Of a DNA stretch of 64,000 nt, positions 7,473 through 19,839 are shown in pieces. The stretch comes from Paracoccus saliphilus. Lineage in GTDB: Bacteria; Pseudomonadota; Alphaproteobacteria; Rhodobacterales; Rhodobacteraceae. The notes beneath the pieces are model-generated. The model saw only the letters and a list, made by a program, of their open reading frames with translations, was not told the DNA's origin and searched no databases. Position numbers and translations under genes: made by a program. Every line of letters begins with the position of its first letter. Position 1 is the stretch's first letter. Location: contig QKYL01000154.1 in NCBI GenBank assembly GCA_003255745.1, positions 1-64,000 of the forward strand, in the 5' to 3' direction.

Positions 7473-9638
7473 ATGTCTTTTTGTTCAACGGCGCTTCATT
7501 TCATGGATCAGAAGAAATCCGACAGTTTTTCCGAAGTTGACGATTGCGACATCGAGCCGATCCATGTTCCGGGCTCGATCCAGTCCTATGGACATATGCT
7601 GATCGCGCGCCGCAGCGACCTGATCGTGGTCGGTGCAGCAGGGCTGCAGGACGGTTGGTCGCGCAAGGCCATGGGCCAGAATCTGGCCAGCCTGTTCGAC
7701 GGCGGCTTTGCTGACCTTGATCCGACGCATCTGACAGGGGGTCGGCCCAAGGTCCTGAACCCGGTCCGGCACCAGGGCGAAAGCTACGATGCCATTGCCT
7801 ATCTCAGCGGGGATCATGTCGTGATCGAGATGGCCCCGCGTCCAGACGGAGCCACTCTTGACGCGGGCTTCCTGTCCCAGCTGGAAATGTCGGGCGCCGC
7901 GATGGAACGTTCGTCGACCCTGGCTGACCTTTATCGCAAGGCGGCGCGTCTGTTTCGCGACCTGACCGGCTTTGACCGGGTCATGATCTATCGCTTTGGC
8001 GACGACGCGTCCGGCGTGGTTGTCGGGGAAAGCTGCGCACCCCATCTCTCCGGCTTCATGAACCATCACTTTCCGGCCACCGACATCCCGCGCCAGGCCC
8101 GCACGCTTTATGTTCGCAACCGGGTTCGGGTCATTGCGGATGTGGACGCACCCGTGGCCCCCATCGCCGGGACCGAACCCGCAATCGCCGATATCGATCT
8201 TAGCGACTCGATGCTGCGCAGTGTTTCACCGATTCATCTGCAGTATCTTCGGAATATGCAGGTTGCAGCATCGGCATCGATGTCGATCGTCAAGGATGGG
8301 CAGCTGTGGGGCCTGGTGGCCTGCCATCACGCACAGCCCCATGTGCTGTCGCTGACGACGCGCCTGGCCTGCCAGGCCCTGGCGGACAGCCTGTCCCGCC
8401 AGATCAAGCTGCGCGAGGAAACCGAGCTTTACCGCGAACGCATCCGCCTGCGCGCGCACGAGGACATGGTGCTGGGGCGTCTGGGTCCCGATGAATCCTT
8501 GGCGCAATTCTTTGCCCATTCGGGGGCCGAACTTGCCGAACTGGTTTCGGCCGACGGCTTTGCCGCCGTTCAGGGCCAGGATCTGTTCACCTTCGGCAGC
8601 TGTCCGCAGGAAGATGACCTAAGGGCCCTTGCCGACCATGTCTGCCATCCCGGCTCGCTCAAAGCCTATCACAGCAGTTGCCTTGGCCGCGATCATCCGC
8701 CCGCGCAAACCTACAGCGACCGGGCCAGCGGTCTGCTGGCAGTCACCATGTCGACCGAGGTGCCGACGATCCTGATGTGGTTCCGCGCCGAAAAGCTGCA
8801 GGTCGTGACTTGGGCCGGCAATCCGCACAAGGACGTACCCGCCACGCCCGGCGCGGTGCTGGAGCCGCGCGCGTCGTTCGAGGCATGGTCGCAGCAGGTT
8901 CGCGGCTGCTCTCGCGAATGGACCGCAGCCGAAACCGAGTCTGTTACCCGATTGGTCAAGCTGATGCTGAGCGCACGCAACAACCAACGCATCCGTCAAC
9001 TGAACGCCGAGCTGCGGACGACGCTGCGGGAAAACGAAAGCTTGATCCGGCAAAAGGAATTCCTGCTGCGCGAGGTCAACCACCGCGTCCAGAACAGCCT
9101 GGCGCTGGTCGCCTCGTTCCTGCGCATGCAGGGCCGGTCGGCCGAGCCTTCGGTGCGCGCCCAGCTGGAAGAGGCGCAGAACCGCCTGACCGCCGTCAGT
9201 CTGGTCCATCGGCGCCTGTACCAGGACGACAGCTCCGAAATCGTGGACCTGTCAATCTATCTTGCCGAACTGATGAAAGAGCTGAAATCGTCGCTGGACG
9301 GGGGCTGGAACCCGCTGATCGAGACGGATTTCGCGCCCATTCTGGTGTCCACCGACAAGGCCATCAGCATTGGCCTGCTGCTGAACGAACTGATCGCGAA
9401 TGCCGCGAAATACGCCTATGCGGGCCAGCCCGGCCCCGTGTCGGTGTCCCTGCGCCAGACCCGCAACCTGCTGCGGCTGGAGGTTTCGGACCAGGGCGTG
9501 GGCGCGGACGGAACCACCAAGGGCACGGGCTTTGGAATGCGCATGGTGGCGGCTCTGGTCGACCGCCTGGAGGGAGAACTTTCGACCGAGGACAATGCCC
9601 CCGGCCTTTGTGTCATCGTCACGGCACCGACGGGATAA
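7473..9638 (+). CDS. bphP: Bacteriophytochrome sensor histidine kinase
   Basis: This 721-residue red/far-red photoreceptor kinase has the order PAS (about 20-125), GAF (about 145-310), PHY (about 320-500), HisKA_2 (about 525-600) and HATPase (about 620-721). Cys25 in DDCDIEPIHVPGSIQSYG is the biliverdin attachment site. GAF shows the DIP motif (Asp204) and SPIHLQYL (His255). The PHY tongue has PRASF (465-469). The phospho-acceptor is His537 in REVNHRVQNSL. ATP-binding boxes are NELIANAAKYAY, SDQGVG and GTGFGMRMV. The start at 7473 has AGGA upstream and gives the usual Cys position; ATG 7503 is the alternative. It converges on lovR with only 3 bases between stops. Confidence 0.95.
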   Translation: MSFCSTALHFMDQKKSDSFSEVDDCDIEPIHVPGSIQSYGHMLIARRSDLIVVGAAGLQDGWSRKAMGQNLASLFDGGFADLDPTHLTGGRPKVLNPVRHQGESYDAIAYLSGDHVVIEMAPRPDGATLDAGFLSQLEMSGAAMERSSTLADLYRKAARLFRDLTGFDRVMIYRFGDDASGVVVGESCAPHLSGFMNHHFPATDIPRQARTLYVRNRVRVIADVDAPVAPIAGTEPAIADIDLSDSMLRSVSPIHLQYLRNMQVAASASMSIVKDGQLWGLVACHHAQPHVLSLTTRLACQALADSLSRQIKLREETELYRERIRLRAHEDMVLGRLGPDESLAQFFAHSGAELAELVSADGFAAVQGQDLFTFGSCPQEDDLRALADHVCHPGSLKAYHSSCLGRDHPPAQTYSDRASGLLAVTMSTEVPTILMWFRAEKLQVVTWAGNPHKDVPATPGAVLEPRASFEAWSQQVRGCSREWTAAETESVTRLVKLMLSARNNQRIRQLNAELRTTLRENESLIRQKEFLLREVNHRVQNSLALVASFLRMQGRSAEPSVRAQLEEAQNRLTAVSLVHRRLYQDDSSEIVDLSIYLAELMKELKSSLDGGWNPLIETDFAPILVSTDKAISIGLLLNELIANAAKYAYAGQPGPVSVSLRQTRNLLRLEVSDQGVGADGTTKGTGFGMRMVAALVDRLEGELSTEDNAPGLCVIVTAPTG

Positions 9639-9641
9639 GGG

Positions 9642-10091
9642 TCACACCCTCAGCGCCGCCAGTGCGGGTGCGGTGACAAGGCTTCCGGGCGCGGCAGGCG
9701 CCGGGCCCACCTTGTGCATCACCCGTTCAAGATAGGTCAGCGCAGCCGTAACGCCGAGGGAGGTGAAGGGCTTTGCGATCAGTCCGTGCGCGCCTTCAAA
9801 GTCCTCGGGGATTTTCTTGGGATTGGCGGTCACGAAGACGACAACGGTTCCCGGCCAGCGTTCCCGGATCAGCGCGTTGACCTGCAGCCCGGTCGTGTCG
9901 CGCGCCAGTTGCATGTCGACAAGGGCAAGATCGGGCCTGTTGTCCTGTGGCAGCGCCTCGACATCTTGCAACGACGCGGCACTGGCGATGACACGGTGTC
10001 CCGCGTCCTCGATGATCATGCCAAGATCCATGGCGATCAGGAATTCGTCCTCGACGACAAGGACGTCCAGCGGGCTGATGGGCTGTGTCAT
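9642..10091 (-). CDS. lovR: Single-domain response regulator, LovR-like
   Basis: This 149-residue receiver domain has no output domain. Acidic pocket residues are E14-D15, the phospho-acceptor is Asp59 (LALVDMQL), the switch Thr88 sits in VVVFVTAN and Lys107 in IAKPF. The strand and loop around T88 resemble the FATGUY class of stand-alone receivers that act in general stress pathways. It overlaps the LOV kinase gene by 4 bases (ATGA), so the two are translationally coupled, as in Caulobacter lovK-lovR. There LovR acts as a phosphate sink that dampens the stress response; the same role here is inference. Confidence 0.88.
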   Translation of the reverse strand: MTQPISPLDVLVVEDEFLIAMDLGMIIEDAGHRVIASAASLQDVEALPQDNRPDLALVDMQLARDTTGLQVNALIRERWPGTVVVFVTANPKKIPEDFEGAHGLIAKPFTSLGVTAALTYLERVMHKVGPAPAAPGSLVTAPALAALRV

Positions 10092-11179
10092 GTGGACTCT
10101 CTGGTTGCGGCGATGTGCAGCCTTGTGCCGGTCTGGGTGGCGTTCCAGCCAACCCTGCAGCGGGCCTGCGCCGCCAGCCGCGCAATGATCAGCGCCCCCA
10201 GGCCCGAGGGAGCAGCGTCGCGGTTGCCGTCGACATCGATGGTCAACTGCGCCTCCTGCCCCTCGGTCGTGGCGGTGATCGTGACAACCGCCTCCGCGTG
10301 CTGGCCTTCGGGCGGGGCAACGGTCTGCGTCAAAATTTCGTTTATGATCAGCCCGATGGCCGAGGCCTGTCCCGCTGGCACCTCGGCCCGGCTCAGATCG
10401 GCCCGGATGCGGATGTTGCTGTCGGGATGGGCTTGTCCCAGATCCTGCGCCAGATTGACCGCATAGGTCCCGATGTCGAACCGGGTGATGTCTTCGGACT
10501 GGTAAAGGCTTCTGTGAACTGCGGCCAGCGCATCGACCCGGGCCATCATCGCGCGCAGCAACGCCTTGGTGCGCGGGTCGTCGGCCTCGCGCATCTGCAG
10601 CCGCAGGATGGAGCCGATCATGGTCATGTTGTTCTTGACCCTATGATCCACCTCGTGAAGCAGCAGCTGCTGGGCCTCGAGCGAGTTCTGCAGCTGCGCC
10701 ATCCGGCGGCCGACCTCGGCTTCGACGCGCGCCTTTTCCTGCGCGATCCGCGACTGGTCGTCGATGCGCGCAGTGACGTCCATCTGCGAGGCGAAGAAGA
10801 ACTTGATCCGCCCTTCGTCGTCTCGGACCGAACTGACAAAGAGGGCGTTCCAGAACCTGCTGCCGTCCTTGCGATAGTTCAGCAGGTCCACCGAGACGTC
10901 GTGCCCCTTGGCGATCGCTTCGCCCAGCCTGGCTACGGTGCGGCGGTCCGTGTCGCCGCCCTGCAGGAAACGGCAGTTGCGCCCCATCACCTCGTGGCGC
11001 TCGTAACCGGTCAGTTGCTGGAAGGCCCTGTTGGCAAAGACGATCGGATTGTCCGGCAGGTTCGGGTCGGTGATGATCATGGCCATCCGCGTCGACCGAA
11101 CCGCCGCCGCGAAGGGATCTCCCCGTCCGTGGTCATAGTCCAGCGCCTCCGTGAGGGTCCAGTCCAAGCGCTGTTCCAA
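10088..11179 (-). CDS. lovK: LOV-domain sensor histidine kinase, LovK-like
   Basis: This 363-residue blue-light sensor kinase has an N-terminal LOV domain (about 22-135) with the flavin-adduct Cys69 in GRNCRFLQGG. It also has the FMN-contact Asn residues in NYRKDGSRFWN. A coiled-coil linker (140-170) leads to a HisKA_2/HWE-type helix with His179 in LLHEVDHRVKNNM. The ATPase domain is shorter and weaker than usual: the N-box reads NEILTQ, and a clean D-x-G-x-G is not obvious (DVDGNRDAAPSGLG). Activity may therefore be low or partner-dependent. It is operonic with lovR and preceded by an EcfG-like promoter. Confidence 0.93.
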   Translation of the reverse strand: MEQRLDWTLTEALDYDHGRGDPFAAAVRSTRMAMIITDPNLPDNPIVFANRAFQQLTGYERHEVMGRNCRFLQGGDTDRRTVARLGEAIAKGHDVSVDLLNYRKDGSRFWNALFVSSVRDDEGRIKFFFASQMDVTARIDDQSRIAQEKARVEAEVGRRMAQLQNSLEAQQLLLHEVDHRVKNNMTMIGSILRLQMREADDPRTKALLRAMMARVDALAAVHRSLYQSEDITRFDIGTYAVNLAQDLGQAHPDSNIRIRADLSRAEVPAGQASAIGLIINEILTQTVAPPEGQHAEAVVTITATTEGQEAQLTIDVDGNRDAAPSGLGALIIARLAAQARCRVGWNATQTGTRLHIAATREST

Positions 11180-11341: not shown

Positions 11342-11371
11342 TTGACGTAAATACTAAAGATTAATATGCCT
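11342..11371 (+). promoter_or_regulatory. Possible promoter of the siderophore operon
   Basis: TTGACG (11342-11347) is followed by an AT-rich block (AAATACTAAAGATTAATATG) standing out from GC-rich surroundings. A -10 near TATGCC at 17-base spacing is only fair. An iron-responsive operator is expected here but I could not match a named one with confidence. Confidence 0.3.
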
Positions 11372-11441
11372 GCCATGCCAGCATCAGCCAGCCTCTCTCT
11401 GTCCCAACCGGCCCCCGCGGCCGCCACGACCCGAGGCGCTG

Positions 11442-13097
11442 ATGACCCTGCCCAACCTGTCCGAAACGATCGATCCCCTTGAATGCGGTGACCCGGACCG
11501 CATTGCGGACCTGGCCAGCCTGCGTGCCCTTCTGGCTTGCGACCGGCTGGAACTGGGCGGGGGACGCGACCTGGTTCCCGTTGCCGGCGGCTGGATCGAG
11601 CCGCGCTTCCGCTGGCCGATGCGAACCGGGCAGCCGCGGCTGCAGCAGCTGATCCGTCACGGGGCCGAGGGGGCCCATTCCATCAACGCCTCAAAGGCGC
11701 TGGCGCTGATACTGGATCGCATCGCGTGTGATCACGGGGACTCGGGTGCCAATCTGGTCCGCCGGGTGCGCGCCAGCCGTCAGCGCATCGCCGAACTGGC
11801 CGCCCACCGGCTGTCGGAACCCGATGGCGCGCCGGATTTCCTGACCGCCGAACAGGCGCTGATCTTTGGTCACTGGATGCACCCCTGCCCCAAGGCCCTG
11901 TCGGGGATGACCCTGCCCGAGGAACGCGCGATGACCCCCGACTGGCGCGGCGCGTTGCGCCTGCACGTGCTGTCGGTCCGGGCCGACCTGGTCGAGACGA
12001 CCGGACCGGACCTGGCAACCGACCTTCCCGGCATGAACCTTGAGGCGGGGGCGGGACGGACGATCCTGCCTGCCCATCCCTTGACATGGGACCGCGCCTG
12101 GCGGGACCCGCAGATTGCCGCGCTGGTCCGCTCGGGCGATATCGTGGACCTGGGACCGGCGGGTCCGGGCTGGTGGGCAACCTCGTCGGTCAGGACCCTT
12201 TGGCGCGGGGACAGCCCCTGGCAGCTCAAGGTCTCGTTGCCGGTCACGGTGACCAATTCCCGACGGGTCAACAAGCGGCACGAACTGTTGGCGGGCGCCG
12301 CGATGGCGCAGCGGTTATGCAACCTGAACGGCCGCTTCGGTCCCTTGCGGATCGTGACGGACCCGCACTGGATGACCCTGCGCCTGCCCGGCCGCGCCGA
12401 AAGCGGGCTAGAGCTGATCCTGCGCCAGAACCCGTGGCGCGGCGCGCGCGGCGGCAAGGTGATGCAGGTGGCGGGCCTGGTCGCGGAACCCTTGCCGGGC
12501 CGTGCCTCGATCCTGTCGCAGATGGTGGCGGGGCACGATCCTGCCGCCTGGTTCGAAACCTATCTGGACTGCGCCGTAGCGCCGCTGCTGCGGCTTTACG
12601 ACGCCACCGGCATCGCCGTCGAGGCGCATCAGCAGAACGCCCTGCTGGACCTGTCGCGCGGCCTGCCCTGCCGCTGCGACATCCGCGACAACCAGGGCTT
12701 CTACATCGCTGATGACATGGCCGATGCCACCCTGCGGGCCATCCCGCAGCTGGTCTATCCGCGGTCCGACTGCGAGGACGCGCTGGCTTATACGCTGATC
12801 GTCAACCAGGTATTCTCGGTCATCCACCGCATGGCGCTGGACGGGCTGCTGTCCGAGGATCGTGCATTGGCGCGGCTGGCGTCCCACCTGACACGACTGG
12901 CGGTCCTGCCGGGCCATGGCGGTGCCTTGGCGCGGCGCTGGCTGACAGCCACCCATCTGCCGGCCAAGGGAAATTTGCTGACGCAACTGGGTGGCGTGGA
13001 CGAACTGCTGATCCCCGGCGAACGCGCGCCGATGATCCGTGTGCCGAACCCGCTGCCGGCCCACGCCGCAGGAAGGGTGCTGGCCGATGTCGCCTGA
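11442..13097 (+). CDS. asbA: NIS siderophore synthetase, AsbA-like
   Basis: This 551-residue IucA/IucC-family enzyme activates a citrate carboxylate as an acyl-adenylate and joins it to an amine. Family motifs are in order: SINASKA (near 86), GHWMHPCPK (near 147), ILPAHPLTWDRA (near 205), ATSSVRTLW, KVSLPVTVTNSRR and AVEAHQQNALL (near 395). The end reads VPNPL plus a short tail. In petrobactin synthesis AsbA couples citrate with spermidine. It is the first gene of a tight five-function operon and overlaps the next gene by 11 bases. Which NIS enzyme acts first is inferred from gene order. Confidence 0.85.
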   Translation: MTLPNLSETIDPLECGDPDRIADLASLRALLACDRLELGGGRDLVPVAGGWIEPRFRWPMRTGQPRLQQLIRHGAEGAHSINASKALALILDRIACDHGDSGANLVRRVRASRQRIAELAAHRLSEPDGAPDFLTAEQALIFGHWMHPCPKALSGMTLPEERAMTPDWRGALRLHVLSVRADLVETTGPDLATDLPGMNLEAGAGRTILPAHPLTWDRAWRDPQIAALVRSGDIVDLGPAGPGWWATSSVRTLWRGDSPWQLKVSLPVTVTNSRRVNKRHELLAGAAMAQRLCNLNGRFGPLRIVTDPHWMTLRLPGRAESGLELILRQNPWRGARGGKVMQVAGLVAEPLPGRASILSQMVAGHDPAAWFETYLDCAVAPLLRLYDATGIAVEAHQQNALLDLSRGLPCRCDIRDNQGFYIADDMADATLRAIPQLVYPRSDCEDALAYTLIVNQVFSVIHRMALDGLLSEDRALARLASHLTRLAVLPGHGGALARRWLTATHLPAKGNLLTQLGGVDELLIPGERAPMIRVPNPLPAHAAGRVLADVA

Positions 13098-15822
13098 AGC
13101 CCCCGAAAGCCGCAGCCTGCGCCAGGCCATCGAGGCCCTGGCCTTCGAGGGCATCTTGAACCCCGTCAGGGGCGGCTGGGTCGTCGGCGACCTGACCATC
13201 CGTACGCCTCACCGCCTGCAGGCCACGGGCCGGGTCCGCCTGCTGGCCGTACCCTTGGATGACGCAGGCCGTCCGGTGACGATCGGCGCCCTGGGCCGGG
13301 GCCTGAAGGCGGCTGGTCATGATCCGCACATCCTGCTGCGTGCGATCCGGCGCAGCGGACATTTCCTGCGCGCGGCCGGTCCCGTCGCGCCCGGACGGCT
13401 GCACCTGCAGGGACTTGCACTGGAAGCCGCGCTGATCGAGGGCCACCCGTATCATCCGGGCTTCAAGTCCCGCATCGGCTTCAGCGACGCCGACAACGCC
13501 GCCTATGGCCCCGAGGCTGCGGCGCCGGTTGCGCCGCTGTGGCTGCACGTGGACCCGGACCTTGCAACGCGGACCGGCACCGACGTTGCGGCAGGTTTCG
13601 CCCAAAGGGGCGCGGTGCCGGTCCATCCGTGGCAGTGGCGCCACCTGCAGGCGGACCCGCTGATCCGCGCATGGCAGGCCGCAGGGCGACTGCGCCTGCT
13701 GGATGACCGCGGTCCCGCAATGCAGGCGACATCATCCCTGCGAACGCTGGCACCGCTGGACGGGCGCGATCATCTCAAGCTGTCGCTTGGCGTCGGGGTG
13801 ACCAGTTCGATCCGCGATCTGGTGCCTTGGTCGGTGGCCGTGGCGCCCGCGATTTCGGACTGGCTTGCGCAGTTAGTTGCGACGGATCCCGGGCTGACAG
13901 ACCTGACAGTTCTGCGCGAACATGGCGCAGTCATTGTCGGGCGGGCGGGATTGGGTGGCCGCCTGGCCGCGATCCGCCGCACGGCCCCGCCGCAGGACGC
14001 GGTGCCGGTGTCGGCGCTGTCCCTGACCGAACCCGACGGCGCCCCCCTGATCGCGCCTTGGCTTGCGCGTCGCGGCACGCGGGCATGGGTGGCGCGGCTG
14101 CTGGCGGTGTTGCGCCCCGTCTGGCGCCTGATGACCCATCATGGCATCGCGTTGGAGGCGCATGGCCAGAACCTGCTGATCCGGCATCAGGACGGCTGGC
14201 CCGTCGGGCTGATCGCCCGCGATTTCAGCGAAAGCCTGGAATACGTGCAGGGGCACCTTGCCCGCCCCGACCTGCGCCCGGATCTGGCCCGGATCGAACC
14301 CGGCTATGACGCCGCGCCTGACGGCACCCACCACCGGATGGCCGCGGCGACCGACCTGCGCGACCTGGTGATGGATTGCCTGGTCACGCACGTCCTGTCG
14401 GATCTGGCCGACCTGCTGCATCGCCGTCACCTGCTGCCCGAACCCGCCTTTTGGGTCATGGCGCGTGCCGCCTTCCCGCCCGCGCCAAGCTTTCACACCG
14501 ACGCACCCGCCTATCCGGCCGAAAGCCTCGCCGCCGGCCTTCTGGGCCGCGCTGGCTGCCACATGGCCCCCAACCCCCTGAGGACCCCGCCCCCGATGAG
14601 TGATCAATTCCGTCTGAACGACCGTCTTGTGGACCCTGTGGCGCTGGACCTGCCCGACCTGCTGGCCGGCCGCGACCCCGACCGCACCCGCGTTGCCCTG
14701 CACCTGACCGACCGCGCCGCCTGCCTTGCCCAGATCTTGCGCCTGAGGGCGGCCGGCGCCTCGTGCTATCCGATCCACCCCGAGACACCCGCCCAGCAGG
14801 CGCGCGATCTGGCCTGCCGTGCCGGCTGCGATCTTCTGGCCCACGACCGCGGGCAAGAGGAGCTGTTGTCCTTGGATCCGCCCCGGCCCGGGGGCGTCCT
14901 GATCCAGATGAGCTCGGGCACCACCGGCACGCCGAAGGTCATTGCCCGCAGCTGGGCCGCCATCCAGACCGAGATCGACGCCTATATCCGCGCCTTCCCC
15001 CAGGCGCGGGACATGACCCCGGTCATCGCCGCACCCATCACCCATTCCTATGGCCTGATCGCTGGCGTCCTGGTGGGGCAGGCCCGCGGACATGTGCCGG
15101 TGGTCCTGGACAGTGCGAACCCCCGAACCATCCTGCGGCAGCTGGCGGGTGTCCGGGACCCGCTGCTCTATGCGGCGCCGCCGCTTCTGCATGTGCTGGC
15201 GCGCTTGGCGGGACCGGGCGGGATGCATGCCGTGATGTCGTCGGGGACGGTGCTGCCGCAGCCCTGGTTCGATGCGATCCGGGGCGCCAGCCGGCACCTG
15301 TTCCAGCAATACGGCTGTTCCGAGGCAGGTTGCCTGGCAATCGCCGTTGATCCCCGCACGCCTGACGACATGGGTGCTCCGCTGCCGCATGTGCGGCTGA
15401 CAGCGGGCAACGCCGCGCCGGGACCAGTGGTGGTGCAGGACGCGGGGGCAGAGGTGCAGACCGGCGATCTGGGCGTGATGGATCCGCGCGGGCACCTGAT
15501 CTTTGCCGGACGCGCCGCCGAGGTGATCGATGTCGCGGGCCTGAACGTTTATCCCGCCCAGATCGAGGCCGCGGCCATGGCCCTGCCCGGCATCCACGAC
15601 GCCGTGGCCTTTGCCATGCCTGACCCTGCGGCCACGCAGCGCCCAGCCCTGGCCTATGCGGGCGAGATGTCCGAGGCGGCCCTGGACGCGCATCTGGCCC
15701 GGCTGCTGTCGCCGCGCCAACGCCCGGCCCGCCTGATCCGCCTGCCTGCCCTGCCACGTGGCGCGAATGGCAAGATTGCGCGGCGAGAGTTGGCCGATAC
15801 CCTGCTGGAGGACGCACGATGA
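13087..15822 (+). CDS. NIS synthetase (AsbB-like) fused to aryl-AMP ligase (AsbC-like)
   Basis: This single frame of 911 residues holds two enzymes. Residues 1 to about 500 are a NIS synthetase with GHPYHPGFKSRIGF, VPVHPWQW, TSSLRTL, KLSLGVGVTSSIRDL and ALEAHGQNLLI. Residues about 510-911 are an adenylating enzyme with SSGTTGTPK (A3), QYGCSEAG (A5), TGDLG (A7), AEVIDVAGLNVYP and the C-terminal NGKIARREL lysine. By cluster logic it adenylates 3,4-dihydroxybenzoate. In Bacillus these are separate proteins, AsbB and AsbC. The junction (14575-14598) reads like a natural NIS end, then a GAGGA and ATG, so one base lost or gained may explain the fusion. Confidence 0.85.
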   Translation: MSPEAPESRSLRQAIEALAFEGILNPVRGGWVVGDLTIRTPHRLQATGRVRLLAVPLDDAGRPVTIGALGRGLKAAGHDPHILLRAIRRSGHFLRAAGPVAPGRLHLQGLALEAALIEGHPYHPGFKSRIGFSDADNAAYGPEAAAPVAPLWLHVDPDLATRTGTDVAAGFAQRGAVPVHPWQWRHLQADPLIRAWQAAGRLRLLDDRGPAMQATSSLRTLAPLDGRDHLKLSLGVGVTSSIRDLVPWSVAVAPAISDWLAQLVATDPGLTDLTVLREHGAVIVGRAGLGGRLAAIRRTAPPQDAVPVSALSLTEPDGAPLIAPWLARRGTRAWVARLLAVLRPVWRLMTHHGIALEAHGQNLLIRHQDGWPVGLIARDFSESLEYVQGHLARPDLRPDLARIEPGYDAAPDGTHHRMAAATDLRDLVMDCLVTHVLSDLADLLHRRHLLPEPAFWVMARAAFPPAPSFHTDAPAYPAESLAAGLLGRAGCHMAPNPLRTPPPMSDQFRLNDRLVDPVALDLPDLLAGRDPDRTRVALHLTDRAACLAQILRLRAAGASCYPIHPETPAQQARDLACRAGCDLLAHDRGQEELLSLDPPRPGGVLIQMSSGTTGTPKVIARSWAAIQTEIDAYIRAFPQARDMTPVIAAPITHSYGLIAGVLVGQARGHVPVVLDSANPRTILRQLAGVRDPLLYAAPPLLHVLARLAGPGGMHAVMSSGTVLPQPWFDAIRGASRHLFQQYGCSEAGCLAIAVDPRTPDDMGAPLPHVRLTAGNAAPGPVVVQDAGAEVQTGDLGVMDPRGHLIFAGRAAEVIDVAGLNVYPAQIEAAAMALPGIHDAVAFAMPDPAATQRPALAYAGEMSEAALDAHLARLLSPRQRPARLIRLPALPRGANGKIARRELADTLLEDAR

Positions 15823-17054
15823 CCAACCCTTGCCCCATTGCTTCGCCCGATGCGATCCTGACCGCAATCCGCCAGATCCTTGCCGGTCCGATGGCATGCC
15901 CCCGGATCGAGGCGTTTGGCCCGCAGGCGCGGCTTGGACATGACCTTGGCTTGGATTCCGTGGCCCTGATGACGCTGATGCTGCATCTGGACGAACAGGG
16001 GATCGAGATGGCCGAGGATACCTTCGACCAGGCCCCCGGCCTGACCGTCGGCGCCCTGGCGCTGGCCCTGGCGGGGGCCACGCCTGCCCCCGCCGACGAA
16101 CCCGTGGACATAAAGGTTCATTGCGTCGTCAGCTGCATCTGCCAAGCCCTGAAGGATCATGGCGGCATCGACCATCGGCCGATGTATCTGGGCCTGTGGG
16201 ACGGCGAGGTGGTCGTCGACGACCGCATGCGGCTGTCCTATCACGCCGAAGCCATCGACCACGACTTCTACCGGAACTGGGCGCAGCGCCTGTTCGGGCT
16301 GACGGTGACGCGTTGGTACGATCCGGCCGCGCCCAAGTCTGAAAACCTGAACCGGCTGCACGCCCTGCTGTTGGACTGGCGGCCCGGCTGTTACGTGATG
16401 CCGATGATCGACATGTTCCTGCTGCCGCAGCGGGACAACAAGTTCGCGCAAGATCCGTTTCCGCATTACGCGCTGATCCAGCCCACGGATGATCCGGACA
16501 ACTGGCTGATGCGCGATCCCGATTTTCGATGGGAAGGCACGCTGCCGGCCCGCGATCTGCGCGCGGCCTTCCTGCGTGACACCGTCGCCGGCGGCTTTGC
16601 CTTTGACACGTCCAAGGCGCGTCCCGCCGCGCGGCAGGACATTGCCGCGATGCATCACGCCACCTTCGATCCTCATGCCACACCGCTGATCGACGCGCTG
16701 CGCCGCATCATCCTTGCGCATTCCGTGGACCTGCCGCGCAAAGACCTGGAATGCGCATTGCGCGAGTTGCCGGTCATCGCCATCCGCAAATATGCCTATG
16801 AACACGCGCTGGCGGTCTTTGGCGACATCGACGGCGCGGATGGTGACGCTTTCGAAGAATGCTGCGACCGTATCGCGGCGCTGACCTCGGGCCTGAATGC
16901 CGTGCATCGCCGCGCTGTGGCCTTTGCCCGGGGCGGGGATGACGACGACCTTTCGCGCGCCCTGTCGGACCTTGACGCGCTGGCCGACCAGGAGCGGGGC
17001 ATCAAAGCCACTGTCTCTGCCTGGTTCAACAATTGGCAGGAGGCCGGAGCATGA
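15819..17054 (+). CDS. Aryl carrier protein (AsbD-like) fused to AsbE-like protein
   Basis: Residues 1 to about 85 of this 411-residue protein are a carrier protein with Ser47 in LGLDSVALM, the phosphopantetheine site. The remaining ~320 residues resemble AsbE, starting at KVHCVVSCICQALKDHGG and continuing through MYLGLWDGEVVV and LSYHAEAIDHDFYRNW. In petrobactin synthesis AsbD carries 3,4-dihydroxybenzoate and AsbE transfers it to the spermidine arms. Fusing carrier and transferase would channel the intermediate. It overlaps its upstream neighbour by ATGA and the next gene by 4 bases, so the operon is translationally coupled. Confidence 0.85.
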   Translation: MTNPCPIASPDAILTAIRQILAGPMACPRIEAFGPQARLGHDLGLDSVALMTLMLHLDEQGIEMAEDTFDQAPGLTVGALALALAGATPAPADEPVDIKVHCVVSCICQALKDHGGIDHRPMYLGLWDGEVVVDDRMRLSYHAEAIDHDFYRNWAQRLFGLTVTRWYDPAAPKSENLNRLHALLLDWRPGCYVMPMIDMFLLPQRDNKFAQDPFPHYALIQPTDDPDNWLMRDPDFRWEGTLPARDLRAAFLRDTVAGGFAFDTSKARPAARQDIAAMHHATFDPHATPLIDALRRIILAHSVDLPRKDLECALRELPVIAIRKYAYEHALAVFGDIDGADGDAFEECCDRIAALTSGLNAVHRRAVAFARGGDDDDLSRALSDLDALADQERGIKATVSAWFNNWQEAGA

Positions 17055-17851
17055 GGGTCCATGCCTGTTCCGTGGCGTTCCGTCATCTGGACGTCACTGC
17101 CGCCGATCTGGCCCGCTATGTCACGCGCGAAGGATTTGACGGGCTGGAAATCTGGGCACCCCATGCCCGCGCGGCGCTGGCCGACTGGCGGGCGCTGGCC
17201 CAGCGCCCGCGCGTTCCGATGCTGGCGGGATATCTGCCGCTTGGCACGCCCGACTTTGAACGGCCCGAGGCGCAGGCGCTGGTTGACCTGACAATTGCCT
17301 GGAACGCGCCAAAGCTGCGGCTGTTCGCGGGGGGGCTGGGATGGGACGGGGCCGATGCTGGGGCTCGCGCTGCCATCACGCGCGACCTGCGACTGGTGGC
17401 GGACATGGCTCGCGATGCCGGCCTGCGCATCGCGGTCGAGACGCATCCCGATACCCTGGCCGACAGCCTGCCTGCCACAATGGCCTTGCTGGACGGACTG
17501 GATCATCCGGCCGTGGGGATCAATTTCGATGTGCTGCATGTCTGGGAGGGCGGCGCCGAGCCGCTGGAGGCGCAGGCCCTGCTGGCACCGCACATCCTGC
17601 ACTATCACTTGAAGTCGGTAACGGCCCGCGACAGGCTGGACGTGTTCCGCCCTGGCAATGTCCACGATCCCCGCGGCCACCGCACGGGCATGTGCGGACT
17701 TTTTCATGGGGTTCTGGATTATCGGCGCATCCTGCGGGGGCTGCCGGACACGGCCGAGGGGTCGCTGGAATGGTTCGGACCCAAGCCCGCAGCCACGATG
17801 ATCGGCGATCTGCGCCAGATGCGGGAACTGAAGGTGAGCGAAGCCGCCTGA
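17051..17851 (+). CDS. asbF: 3-dehydroshikimate dehydratase, AsbF-like
   Basis: This 266-residue TIM-barrel protein of the xylose-isomerase/AP-endonuclease type would make 3,4-dihydroxybenzoate (protocatechuate) from 3-dehydroshikimate. Likely metal and catalytic residues lie in GLEIWAPHARAA (Glu), RIAVETHPDTLAD (Glu, His), GINFDVLHVWEGG (Asp, His), HILHYHLKSV (His) and EGSLEWFGP (Glu). The start at 17051 uses the ATGA overlap with the previous gene rather than the upstream in-frame codon. Its place at the end of an NIS operon is the strongest evidence that the siderophore carries 3,4-catecholates, the hallmark of petrobactin. Confidence 0.85.
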   Translation: MRVHACSVAFRHLDVTAADLARYVTREGFDGLEIWAPHARAALADWRALAQRPRVPMLAGYLPLGTPDFERPEAQALVDLTIAWNAPKLRLFAGGLGWDGADAGARAAITRDLRLVADMARDAGLRIAVETHPDTLADSLPATMALLDGLDHPAVGINFDVLHVWEGGAEPLEAQALLAPHILHYHLKSVTARDRLDVFRPGNVHDPRGHRTGMCGLFHGVLDYRRILRGLPDTAEGSLEWFGPKPAATMIGDLRQMRELKVSEAA

Positions 17852-17901: not shown

Positions 17902-19839
17902 TCAGAACCGCAGGTTGGCCGTCACGGCGACGCTGCGCCCCGGTTCCTGCTGGCCGATAACGCTGGTGAAGTCGCCGCCATAGCTGGCGCGGTCCACATA
18001 GGCCCGGTCAAAGAGGTTGTTCACCTCGGCCCGCAGGGTCAGGTTGCGGTAGGCCGCCGGTTCGTACTCTGCGAAAACGTCGACCACGGTATAGCTCGCG
18101 AAATCGGCGTCGGTCCCTGCCCCACCGGAAGTTTCATCCAGCGCGTGCTGCACGACGCTGCCAAGGCTCAGGCCGGCCATCACCTCGTGACGGGCCTCCA
18201 GCGTCAGGATGCGGCCCGGAACGGTGCCCAGTTCGCGCAGGTCGAAGGTCGAGGCGGCTTCGCCATCCACCTCCACGGAAACGTCGCTGTATCGCAGGAC
18301 CGCGAAACCGCCTGCCCAATCCTGGCGGGCGGACAGGTGATAACCCTCGCTTTCGACGTCGCGTGCCTCCAGCCCCTTGCGGGCGTGGCCCAACTTGGTG
18401 CGGAACAGATCAGCGCCCAGGGTGGTGCCGCCCAGGGTCCATTCCAAGCCCAGTATCGCGTTCTGCGCGCGCGTCGGCCGCAAATCGTCATAGGCGCCGT
18501 CCAGTTCGTAGGGCGCGTCCAGTTCATAGACGGATGCCAGCTGCGTGCCGCCAAAGACGCTGGAATACCCCGCGTTGACCGACAGCGCGTCCGTGGCATG
18601 CCACGTGACCGAGCCGTTCACGCTGGCGCCATCGGTGTCGATCTGCTGCCCGCCGGCTCCGGTGAAGCGGCTCCAGTCATAGCGCAGGCCGGTGCTGTAG
18701 TCGAACCGCCCATGCGTTCCGCGCGCCTGCGCGAAGACGCCGGTGTTGGTGCGATCCTCTCGGAAGGCTGCTGTCACGCCGCGGAACTGGCCGGAGTAGA
18801 GGGCGCGGCTGCGGTTGTTGTCCAGGCCCGCCGTGATCGTGGCCCCGCCCAGCTGAAAGTGGTTTTGCGCCACAGCCGAAACCGTGTCGGCGGTGCCGTT
18901 GTTGTAATCGGGATCGGTGATGTCCGCCGTTGCCAGATCGGCAGTGTTCAGGATGCTTTCCGACCGTGAGATCCGAAGCTCGGGGTCGATCAGGCCATCC
19001 GCCTGGCTGCGGCGCACGCTGAGGGTCTGGGTTTCCTGATCCAAAAGGTAACGACGTGTCTCCGGGGTCGGCCGGACGCCGATCACGCCGCCCAGGTTGG
19101 CGCGATAAGGGCGCAGCGCGTCATCCTCGACCTTTGTCGCCCCCAGCTCTGCCCGCCAATCGCCCATCTGCGCGCCCAGCTTCAGCATATAGCTGTTCAT
19201 GTCGGCGCCGGTGTAACGCACCGTTTCTCCGTCGCCGTCTTCGTAGTCGTCGCCCGTGGCGCGCTTGCCATAGATCACGGCATCAACCGGCCCTTGGCGG
19301 CCATACAGCGTCAGGGCGCCCGTTGCGGTCTTGCCGTTGCCCTCATAGCCGATCGTGACCTTGCCGCCGTAATCCTTGCCGTCTTCCAGCAGGTCCAGTG
19401 CCGATTTGGTCTCATAGGCGATGCTGCCGGCCAGGGCGCCAAAGCCCGCATCCGCCGGCGCCACGCCCGCATCGACGCGCACCGCCTTCAGCAGGCCGGG
19501 ATCGATCACGTTCGTGCCGGTGTGGTGGAAGACGCGGTTGTTCTGGGCGGCACCGTCCACAGTCACCGCCAGCTGCTGCTGGTCGATGCCGTTGACAAAG
19601 ACGCGCTCGGTCATCGCGATGCCGCCGCCGACGATCACACTGGGTTCGGCGCGGAACAGCGTGTCCAGGCTGCCGGTCTGGGCATCCTCGATCTGTTCGG
19701 GGGTGACGTCGATCTGGCCGGCGCCCTGCTCCTGCTCGGCAGTCAGGACGATCGGGTCAAGCACCACCGTCTGCGACAGCGCGACGGCAGGAAAAACGGC
19801 AGAGCCAAGCAGCAGTGCTGCCAGGGGAAGTCGTGGCAT
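17902..19839 (-). CDS. TonB-dependent outer-membrane siderophore receptor
   Basis: This 645-residue receptor has a signal peptide (residues 1-22, ending AVALSQ), a TonB-box-like TVVLDPIVL, a plug domain (about 35-150, including RVFVNGIDQQQLAVTVDG) and a 22-strand-type barrel ending in aromatic F. The C-terminal region NLTLRAEVNNLFDRAYVDRASY is typical of TonB receptors. It is convergent with the petrobactin-type operon, 50 bases away, so it is the best candidate receptor for the ferric siderophore. Heme motifs (FRAP/NPNL) are absent from what I read. No periplasmic binding protein or ABC importer for it is in the window. Confidence 0.9.
   Translation of the reverse strand: MPRLPLAALLLGSAVFPAVALSQTVVLDPIVLTAEQEQGAGQIDVTPEQIEDAQTGSLDTLFRAEPSVIVGGGIAMTERVFVNGIDQQQLAVTVDGAAQNNRVFHHTGTNVIDPGLLKAVRVDAGVAPADAGFGALAGSIAYETKSALDLLEDGKDYGGKVTIGYEGNGKTATGALTLYGRQGPVDAVIYGKRATGDDYEDGDGETVRYTGADMNSYMLKLGAQMGDWRAELGATKVEDDALRPYRANLGGVIGVRPTPETRRYLLDQETQTLSVRRSQADGLIDPELRISRSESILNTADLATADITDPDYNNGTADTVSAVAQNHFQLGGATITAGLDNNRSRALYSGQFRGVTAAFREDRTNTGVFAQARGTHGRFDYSTGLRYDWSRFTGAGGQQIDTDGASVNGSVTWHATDALSVNAGYSSVFGGTQLASVYELDAPYELDGAYDDLRPTRAQNAILGLEWTLGGTTLGADLFRTKLGHARKGLEARDVESEGYHLSARQDWAGGFAVLRYSDVSVEVDGEAASTFDLRELGTVPGRILTLEARHEVMAGLSLGSVVQHALDETSGGAGTDADFASYTVVDVFAEYEPAAYRNLTLRAEVNNLFDRAYVDRASYGGDFTSVIGQQEPGRSVAVTANLRF

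Follow-up and report, generated by a model that had tools for sequence, protein, structure and literature searches.

A petrobactin-type siderophore operon of Paracoccus in four genes, with an apparently separate fusion of the AsbB and AsbC functions

In the petrobactin scheme described for asbABCDEF, AsbA joins citrate to spermidine, AsbB adds the second arm, AsbF provides 3,4-dihydroxybenzoate, AsbC loads it onto AsbD and AsbE transfers it to spermidine (PMC6836290). The potential to produce petrobactin has been reported in Alphaproteobacteria, Gammaproteobacteria and Bacilli (PMC8776838), and AsbABCDEF has been counted in 245 alphaproteobacterial genomes (PMC8822346). A condensed layout, mllA-mllBC-mllDE-mllF, was described in 2024 in a report that states the mllBC fusion to be unseen in characterized homologues and the D+E fusion to be common to the rhodopetrobactin and roseobactin loci (PMC11317620); roseobactin is made by Phaeobacter inhibens (PMC13421778). 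In Paracoccus, asbABEF but not asbCD have been reported in P. marcusii CP157 (PMC8273931). Here, we describe a petrobactin-type operon of Paracoccus saliphilus, located in a window (the whole stretch of DNA analysed, 64,000 nucleotides of contig QKYL01000154.1) that belongs to a genome of 3.75 Mb. An initial annotation of this DNA considered such an operon unusual for an alphaproteobacterium, a view left unsupported by the 245 genomes and by the publication of the same fused layout as mll.

Four overlapping genes on the forward strand, at 11442-17851, carry six asb-type functions in the order A-(B+C)-(D+E)-F, among them two nonribosomal peptide synthetase-independent siderophore (NIS) synthetases:

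11442-13097, + strand: asbA, 551 amino acids (aa), type A NIS synthetase (citrate + spermidine); Pfam IucA_IucC and FhuF; best PDB sequence matches IucA and AcsD, with the general-base Glu/His of AcsD kept
13087-15822, + strand: asbBC, fused gene, 911 aa; Pfam IucA_IucC, FhuF, AMP-binding and AMP-binding_C (the last at 24.4 bits, slightly below its cut-off of 24.5)
13087-14631 (boundary approximate), + strand: asbB half of asbBC, type C NIS synthetase; Pfam match; PDB sequence match to petrobactin AsbB 3to3, E 2.1e-50
14632-15822 (boundary approximate), + strand: asbC half of asbBC, aryl-AMP ligase; NF006167 374 bits (cut-off 513); adenylation motifs A3, A5, A7, A8 and A10 present
15819-17054, + strand: asbDE, fused gene, 411 aa; no PDB match by sequence at E up to 0.1
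15819-16094, + strand: asbD half of asbDE, aryl carrier domain; Pfam PP-binding; phosphopantetheine site GLDS with the carrier serine; NF005798 34 bits (cut-off 100)
16107-17054, + strand: asbE half of asbDE, DUF6005 acyltransferase (391 bits, cut-off 25), predicted CtaG/CcbD-like papain fold with Cys102, His216 and Asp233/235
17051-17851, + strand: asbF, 3-dehydroshikimate dehydratase, source of 3,4-dihydroxybenzoate; Pfam AP_endonuc_2; PDB sequence match to AsbF 3dx5, E 3.7e-48; motif residues conserved in the family alignment

Successive genes overlap by 11, 4 and 4 bp. The start of asbF was listed among the open reading frames as TTG 17033; ATG 17051 is preferred, with AGGAGG ahead of it and an overlap with the preceding stop as ATGA. 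A script search found the NIS motifs HxxHPxxK, SxRT and ExHxQN in both A and B (ExHxQN at 357 in the B half, the same as in A). In an alignment counted by eye, E394, H396 and R275 of AsbA stand opposite the catalytic residues E442, H444 and R305 of AcsD (PMC3323832). The motifs ETHP, NxDxLH and LEWFG are present in AsbF, and the two IucA_IucC matches of the genome both lie in the operon. The Pfam and PDB matches, together with the motifs, bear out the initial annotation in its petrobactin type, six asb functions and Bacillus-like order; the alphaproteobacterial host, the single proteins for B+C and for D+E, and the overlap of all genes were also rightly recorded there. The locus is very probably a petrobactin-type NIS operon of Paracoccus, expected to yield petrobactin, bis(3,4-dihydroxybenzoyl-spermidinyl) citrate, or a very near relative, and its four-gene form came about through a B+C fusion within Rhodobacterales.

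Within the genus, 16 of 125 genomes have an AsbE-type DUF6005 protein; samples drawn from the whole family and the whole class gave 3 of 394 and 3 of 385, respectively (the window genome is counted in each). In Methylobacterium, the figure is 24 of 111 genomes. Both fusions are present in 15 of the 16 genus genomes, the remaining one (G033, locus L081) having separate B and C genes. When duplicates of one genome were merged by identical C domain, 56 distinct loci were obtained, 33 of them with both fusions (18 from Paracoccaceae, window included, and 15 from Methylobacterium), 19 with the D+E fusion only and 4 scored as unfused (two Marinobacter litoralis, one Exiguobacterium and one Marinobacter contig that ends before D). 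The D+E fusion is thus found in 52 of the 56, every alphaproteobacterial locus read among them, and the B+C fusion is confined to the two groups Paracoccaceae and Methylobacterium. The 18 distinct Paracoccaceae loci that carry both fusions rule out a sequencing slip of one genome as their source. Gene order in the window is that of the Exiguobacterium and Marinobacter loci. Regarding the sample, the 23 Methylobacterium regions plus L013 represent all 24 genomes with a match, the contig of L123 ends at DE, L018 ends before D and E, and the AsbD of L020, missed by BLAST, is a separate 84-aa frame.

The origin of the B+C fusion was approached through two domain trees, a C-domain tree of 54 rows built by a careful method (L019 and L147 left out) and a B-domain tree of 53 rows built by a quick method (L011 also left out, its B part being too short). 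Both trees are without Sinorhizobium fredii and are rooted at the midpoint for drawing only, and the placement of the long rows L081 and L020 is itself unsure. In the C tree, all 18 fused rows from Paracoccaceae cluster together (support 100/100), and this cluster joins Phaeobacter, Leisingera, G450 and, weakly, L081 in a group of 22 rows (100/98). Methylobacterium forms a group of its own (100/100), with 15 fused rows, presumably mll-type judging from their layout, and nine unfused ones. The one Bacillota row, on a long branch, joins Marinobacter, away from the window. The fused state requires three changes on the C tree, at least two of them forced by well-supported branches, and two changes on the B tree. 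Fused BC frames measure 886-968 aa in Paracoccaceae (P. beibuensis, 645 aa, apart) and 1050-1098 aa in Methylobacterium (L139, cut at a contig end, 950 aa). The separate AsbB and AsbC genes are only 2 bases apart in Phaeobacter and 5 in Leisingera, so that a small change could fuse them. The simplest reading is that the B+C fusion arose twice, in Paracoccaceae and in Methylobacterium, plus one re-splitting or extra gain within Methylobacterium. The ancestor would have had five genes, A-B-C-DE-F, much as in Phaeobacter, and a B+C fusion within Rhodobacterales would have led from it to the four-gene form.

The AlphaFold2 model of asbDE, based on a 16-row alignment, has a mean predicted local distance difference test score (pLDDT) of 83.8 and a predicted template modelling score (pTM) of 0.69. 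A Foldseek search with this model returned 17 PDB chains at E < 0.001, all of them CtaG, AziU2-U3 or CcbD (reported E 2.2e-7). VIA-align gave Z scores of 16.1-17.0 with CtaG (17.0 to 9qvj), 15.8 with AziU2-U3 and 15.2-15.3 with CcbD, over 276-283 residues; the N-terminal 80 residues of the model aligned with acyl carrier proteins at Z of about 9-11. CtaG (closthioamide), CcbD (celesticetin) and AziU2-U3 transfer acyl groups from a carrier protein to an amine. The CtaG variants C11A, H128A and D144N and the CcbD variant C19S are listed in PDB titles, and C102, H216, D233 and D235 of asbDE show spacings like those of CtaG and CcbD and are invariant in all 65 aligned rows (duplicates included). 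These enzymes share with the AsbE domain its predicted fold and a Cys-His-Asp pattern, and complexes of CcbD with a peptidyl carrier protein are named in PDB titles; they differ in sequence (8-15% identity) and, judging from the same titles, in having an unfused carrier. The model suggests that the AsbE domain would be a CtaG/CcbD-like papain-fold cysteine acyltransferase, acting through an acyl-enzyme with its donor carrier tethered. We consider it fairly probable that AsbE (DUF6005) passes the catechol to spermidine through a Cys102 acyl-enzyme, that in alphaproteobacteria the D+E fusion keeps the donor carrier tethered to it, and that two lineages then separately joined the adenylating enzyme to the NIS synthetase, arriving at four proteins by convergent fusion. 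Among the papers listed in a literature search, none connected CtaG, closthioamide, CcbD, LmbD or BtrH with petrobactin, AsbE or DUF6005, which is not proof that the link is unpublished. The candidate catalytic cysteine is testable and would settle how the catechol amide bonds of petrobactin form.

The following steps are proposed, in the order of the published petrobactin scheme. AsbF would convert 3-dehydroshikimate into 3,4-dihydroxybenzoate, which the C half of BC would adenylate and attach to the carrier domain D. From this carrier, the E half of DE would accept it as a cysteine acyl-enzyme and pass it to spermidine. Citrate would receive two (dihydroxybenzoyl-)spermidine arms through AsbA and the B half of BC.

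The spermidine itself would be made by the host through the carboxyspermidine route. A genome search detected a carboxynorspermidine/carboxyspermidine decarboxylase (CANSDC) gene (412.5 bits, cut-off 409.05) and, adjoining it, a CANSDH gene (NF043000 408.9 bits, below the cut-off of 800; PDB carboxyspermidine dehydrogenase 8deb, E 1.1e-94), with no match in the genome to spermidine synthase (SpeE, PF01564). The presence of this route, with no SpeE match, favours spermidine and hence petrobactin or a close relative. The second PF03435 protein of the genome resembles a saccharopine reductase, no GNAT acetyltransferase was found among the eight neighbour proteins scanned, and the DUF2218 protein of Phaeobacter has no homologue in the 64-kb window. 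Homospermidine or an acetylated variant therefore appears to be without genetic support here, homospermidine synthase having been looked at via PF03435 matches with no specific model run, and the different polyamine suggested by the initial annotation does not find support. On a plasmid of Leisingera sp. S132 (L145), the genes speA-CANSDH-CANSDC-speB stand directly before the receptor and the unfused asb cluster, as though the cluster took its polyamine supply along with it.

Return of the ferric siderophore could be served by a gene convergent with asbF:

17902-19839, - strand: TonB-dependent outer-membrane receptor (Pfam Plug + barrel), likely a ferric-siderophore receptor

The genome gave a single match of this kind, the receptor itself. 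Its place and its relatives suggest a ferric siderophore as the ligand: receptors 60-72% identical occupy the same place in 6 of the 17 other fused Paracoccaceae loci (tblastn), and those beside asb in Phaeobacter and Leisingera are 39-40% identical. Furthermore, the genome holds one match to a FatB-like substrate-binding protein (C22:37026-37853), 50% identical to that of the Phaeobacter cluster. It belongs to a FatB-type locus, unlinked to asb, with two FecCD permeases, an ATPase, ExbB, TonB and a siderophore-interacting FAD protein (SIP; ferric-chelate reductase). The adjacent receptor and this unlinked locus could together supply uptake, the ferric siderophore returning through the receptor, the FatB-type ABC importer, ExbB, TonB and the siderophore-interacting reductase.

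Upstream of asbA, a conserved stretch may act as its promoter region:

11342..11393, + strand: conserved promoter footprint, putative function; TTGAC at 11342-11346, an AT-rich stretch, and the direct repeat GCCAGC-N4-GCCAGC at 11377-11392

The TTGAC element was aligned upstream of asbA in all 17 fused Paracoccaceae loci with upstream sequence, and in 15 of these 17 the GCCAGC direct repeat follows at a distance of about 30 bp (with a 4-5 base spacer and some variation). The loci are related sequences and the counts are not independent; their flanks have nevertheless diverged. A scan of 400 upstream bases gave no such repeat for L081 or for the loci of Methylobacterium, Rhizobiaceae, Azospirillum and Marinobacter. 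Phaeobacter and Leisingera have looser GCCAGC copies, with a 5-base spacer and at other distances, too little evidence to call this a general element of Rhodobacterales. In the 64-kb window, the repeat occurs in exact form once, ahead of asbA. A regulon shared through this repeat is not proposed, as no exact copy lies upstream of the receptor or at the FatB-type locus.

Further upstream lies a light-sensor block, with a bacteriophytochrome that includes a kinase of the HWE type (7473-9638) and, on the - strand, a response regulator with a receiver domain only (9642-10091) and a PAS/HWE histidine kinase (10088-11179). A reading of these neighbours as regulators of a photoreactive siderophore was set aside: in the remaining 17 fused Paracoccaceae loci, tblastn gave no match longer than 60 aa to the phytochrome, the HWE kinase, the response regulator or the nearby LysR and catalase proteins.

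Among the relatives, several loci depart from the layout of the window. Nine of the 24 Methylobacterium loci (L013, L122-L124, L129, L131-L133, L141) represent a second type, with separate B and C genes and no asbF homologue within the stretch read. L081, from the same genus as the window, is a divergent asb cluster with separate B and C genes, on a long branch, and is possibly a second acquisition in the genus. Plasmid p296221 of Paracoccus aestuarii (L121/L075) carries a copy of the operon by replication and partition genes, with asbA in two pieces, no asbF, and nadC after DE. In Paracoccus beibuensis (L011), the C-terminal end of asbA and the N-terminal start of asbB are missing through what appears to be an internal deletion; C, DE, F and the receptor are open. 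Finally, in the draft record of Paracoccus sp. PAMC 22219 (L010), B and F each extend over two frames and the contig begins inside asbA.

The loci also differ in the A8 region of the adenylating domain, at about residues 808-818 of asbBC (window 15508-15540), a position which we take to be the domain-alternation hinge. R-x-A-E is found in all 15 readable fused Paracoccaceae proteins (of 18), most others have R-x-D-D, and the nine asbF-less Methylobacterium loci have R-x-S-D. The survey pattern was unmatched in L005/L079, L086, L087, L081 and L147, of which L081 was read separately.

Other histories of the operon have to be set against a B+C fusion that arose twice. A single ancient B+C fusion in Alphaproteobacteria, later re-split, could rely on the three changes of the C tree being also readable as fewer gains with losses, and on the split forms inside the Methylobacterium clade; one old gain with losses would be compatible with a B+C event shared with mllBC. 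However, the fused groups are apart in both trees, where well-supported branches force at least two changes, a single old gain costs more changes by our own count, and fused lengths differ between the two groups (truncated frames apart), which makes this history rather unlikely. The initial annotation put forward transfer with subsequent compaction; taken as direct transfer from Bacillota, this is disfavoured and hardly credible at all. The Bacillus-like gene order speaks for it, the patchy occurrence in Paracoccus and the plasmid-borne copy point to gain and loss, and the asb genes of S. fredii are reported to be Bacillus-like, 62-69% identical to those of B. anthracis (PMC8822346). Nevertheless, the C tree places the window within Rhodobacterales, with Phaeobacter and Leisingera and with the Bacillota row elsewhere, and the D+E fusion runs through every alphaproteobacterial locus read; the position of the Paracoccus enzymes beside the unfused ones of Phaeobacter and Leisingera argues against direct import from Bacillus. 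That the operon is a decaying remnant whose siderophore is no longer made also seems very unlikely, for although P. aestuarii, P. beibuensis and Paracoccus sp. PAMC 22219 show decay or broken frames, the four genes of the window are open and overlapping, with their motifs present and the promoter footprint intact.

With regard to the product, several points weigh against petrobactin and against the uptake proposed above. The NCBIfam models for AsbD and for acyl-CoA synthetase remain below their cut-offs in the window and likewise in Phaeobacter, which indicates a divergent family, and the A8 region of the BC proteins of this clade has Ala for the usual Asp. Within the stretches read, 11 of the 18 fused Paracoccaceae loci have no such receptor next to asb, and the best NCBIfam models for the receptor of the window are haem/haemoglobin-type, all below cut-off. 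Homospermidine synthase was examined through PF03435 matches alone. Moreover, methylolanthanin of Methylobacterium extorquens AM1 is reported to contain 4-hydroxybenzoate despite mllF (PMC11317620), so an asbF gene is no guarantee of 3,4-dihydroxybenzoate. A product resembling rhodopetrobactin or methylolanthanin, its arms containing homospermidine, 4-hydroxybenzoate or both, would agree with an acid that is not fixed by asbF alone and with the four-gene layout shared with mll; M. extorquens PA1, with a like cluster, has been reported to make rhodopetrobactin B (PMC13251462). However, the enzymes of the window group with those of Phaeobacter and Leisingera and not with Methylobacterium, neither the GNAT nor the DUF2218 protein was seen within the scopes given above, and the genome has the carboxyspermidine route and a second PF03435 protein that is saccharopine reductase-like. 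Such a product is accordingly improbable, and petrobactin or a very near relative is the expected one.

In comparison with the described systems, the mll locus of M. extorquens AM1 shares with the window the four-gene layout, both fusions and a linked TonB receptor. It differs in its product, since methylolanthanin has 4-hydroxybenzoate and acetylated homospermidine, in sequence, the fused Methylobacterium loci being about 34-53% identical to the window by domain, in a B+C fusion most simply seen as separate, and in the GNAT and DUF2218 neighbours, not seen here. The pPGA1_78 cluster of Phaeobacter inhibens, presumably the roseobactin locus, and that of Leisingera sp. S132 are, among named loci, the nearest outgroup in the two trees and share the D+E fusion and the related receptor; in contrast, their B and C are separate genes, with ABC importer genes nearby in Phaeobacter and an ABC exporter-like gene nearby in both. 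The petrobactin asbABCDEF loci (Bacillus, Marinobacter, Alteromonas, S. fredii) have the same six functions and order, but in six genes, which are separate in the Marinobacter and Exiguobacterium loci read and 32-44% identical by domain to the window; this comparison covers these two genera, with the S. fredii, Alteromonas and Bacillus loci left out.

Within the genus, asbC and asbD are reported missing in P. marcusii CP157, whereas the related strain P. marcusii CGMCC 1.8602 (L007) has the operon with both fusions, where C and D are seen as fused domains. Judging from this related strain, no replacement genes need be assumed for CP157. This suggests that fusion can cause asbC and asbD to be missed in Paracoccus, and it would account for the published incomplete cluster. 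The operon is otherwise an ordinary siderophore locus, and its four-gene layout was already known from mll; what is added here is an apparently separate B+C fusion. Repeated fusion, alongside known products that differ in acid and polyamine (petrobactin, rhodopetrobactin and methylolanthanin), provides natural pairs for testing the effect of fusion on product choice.

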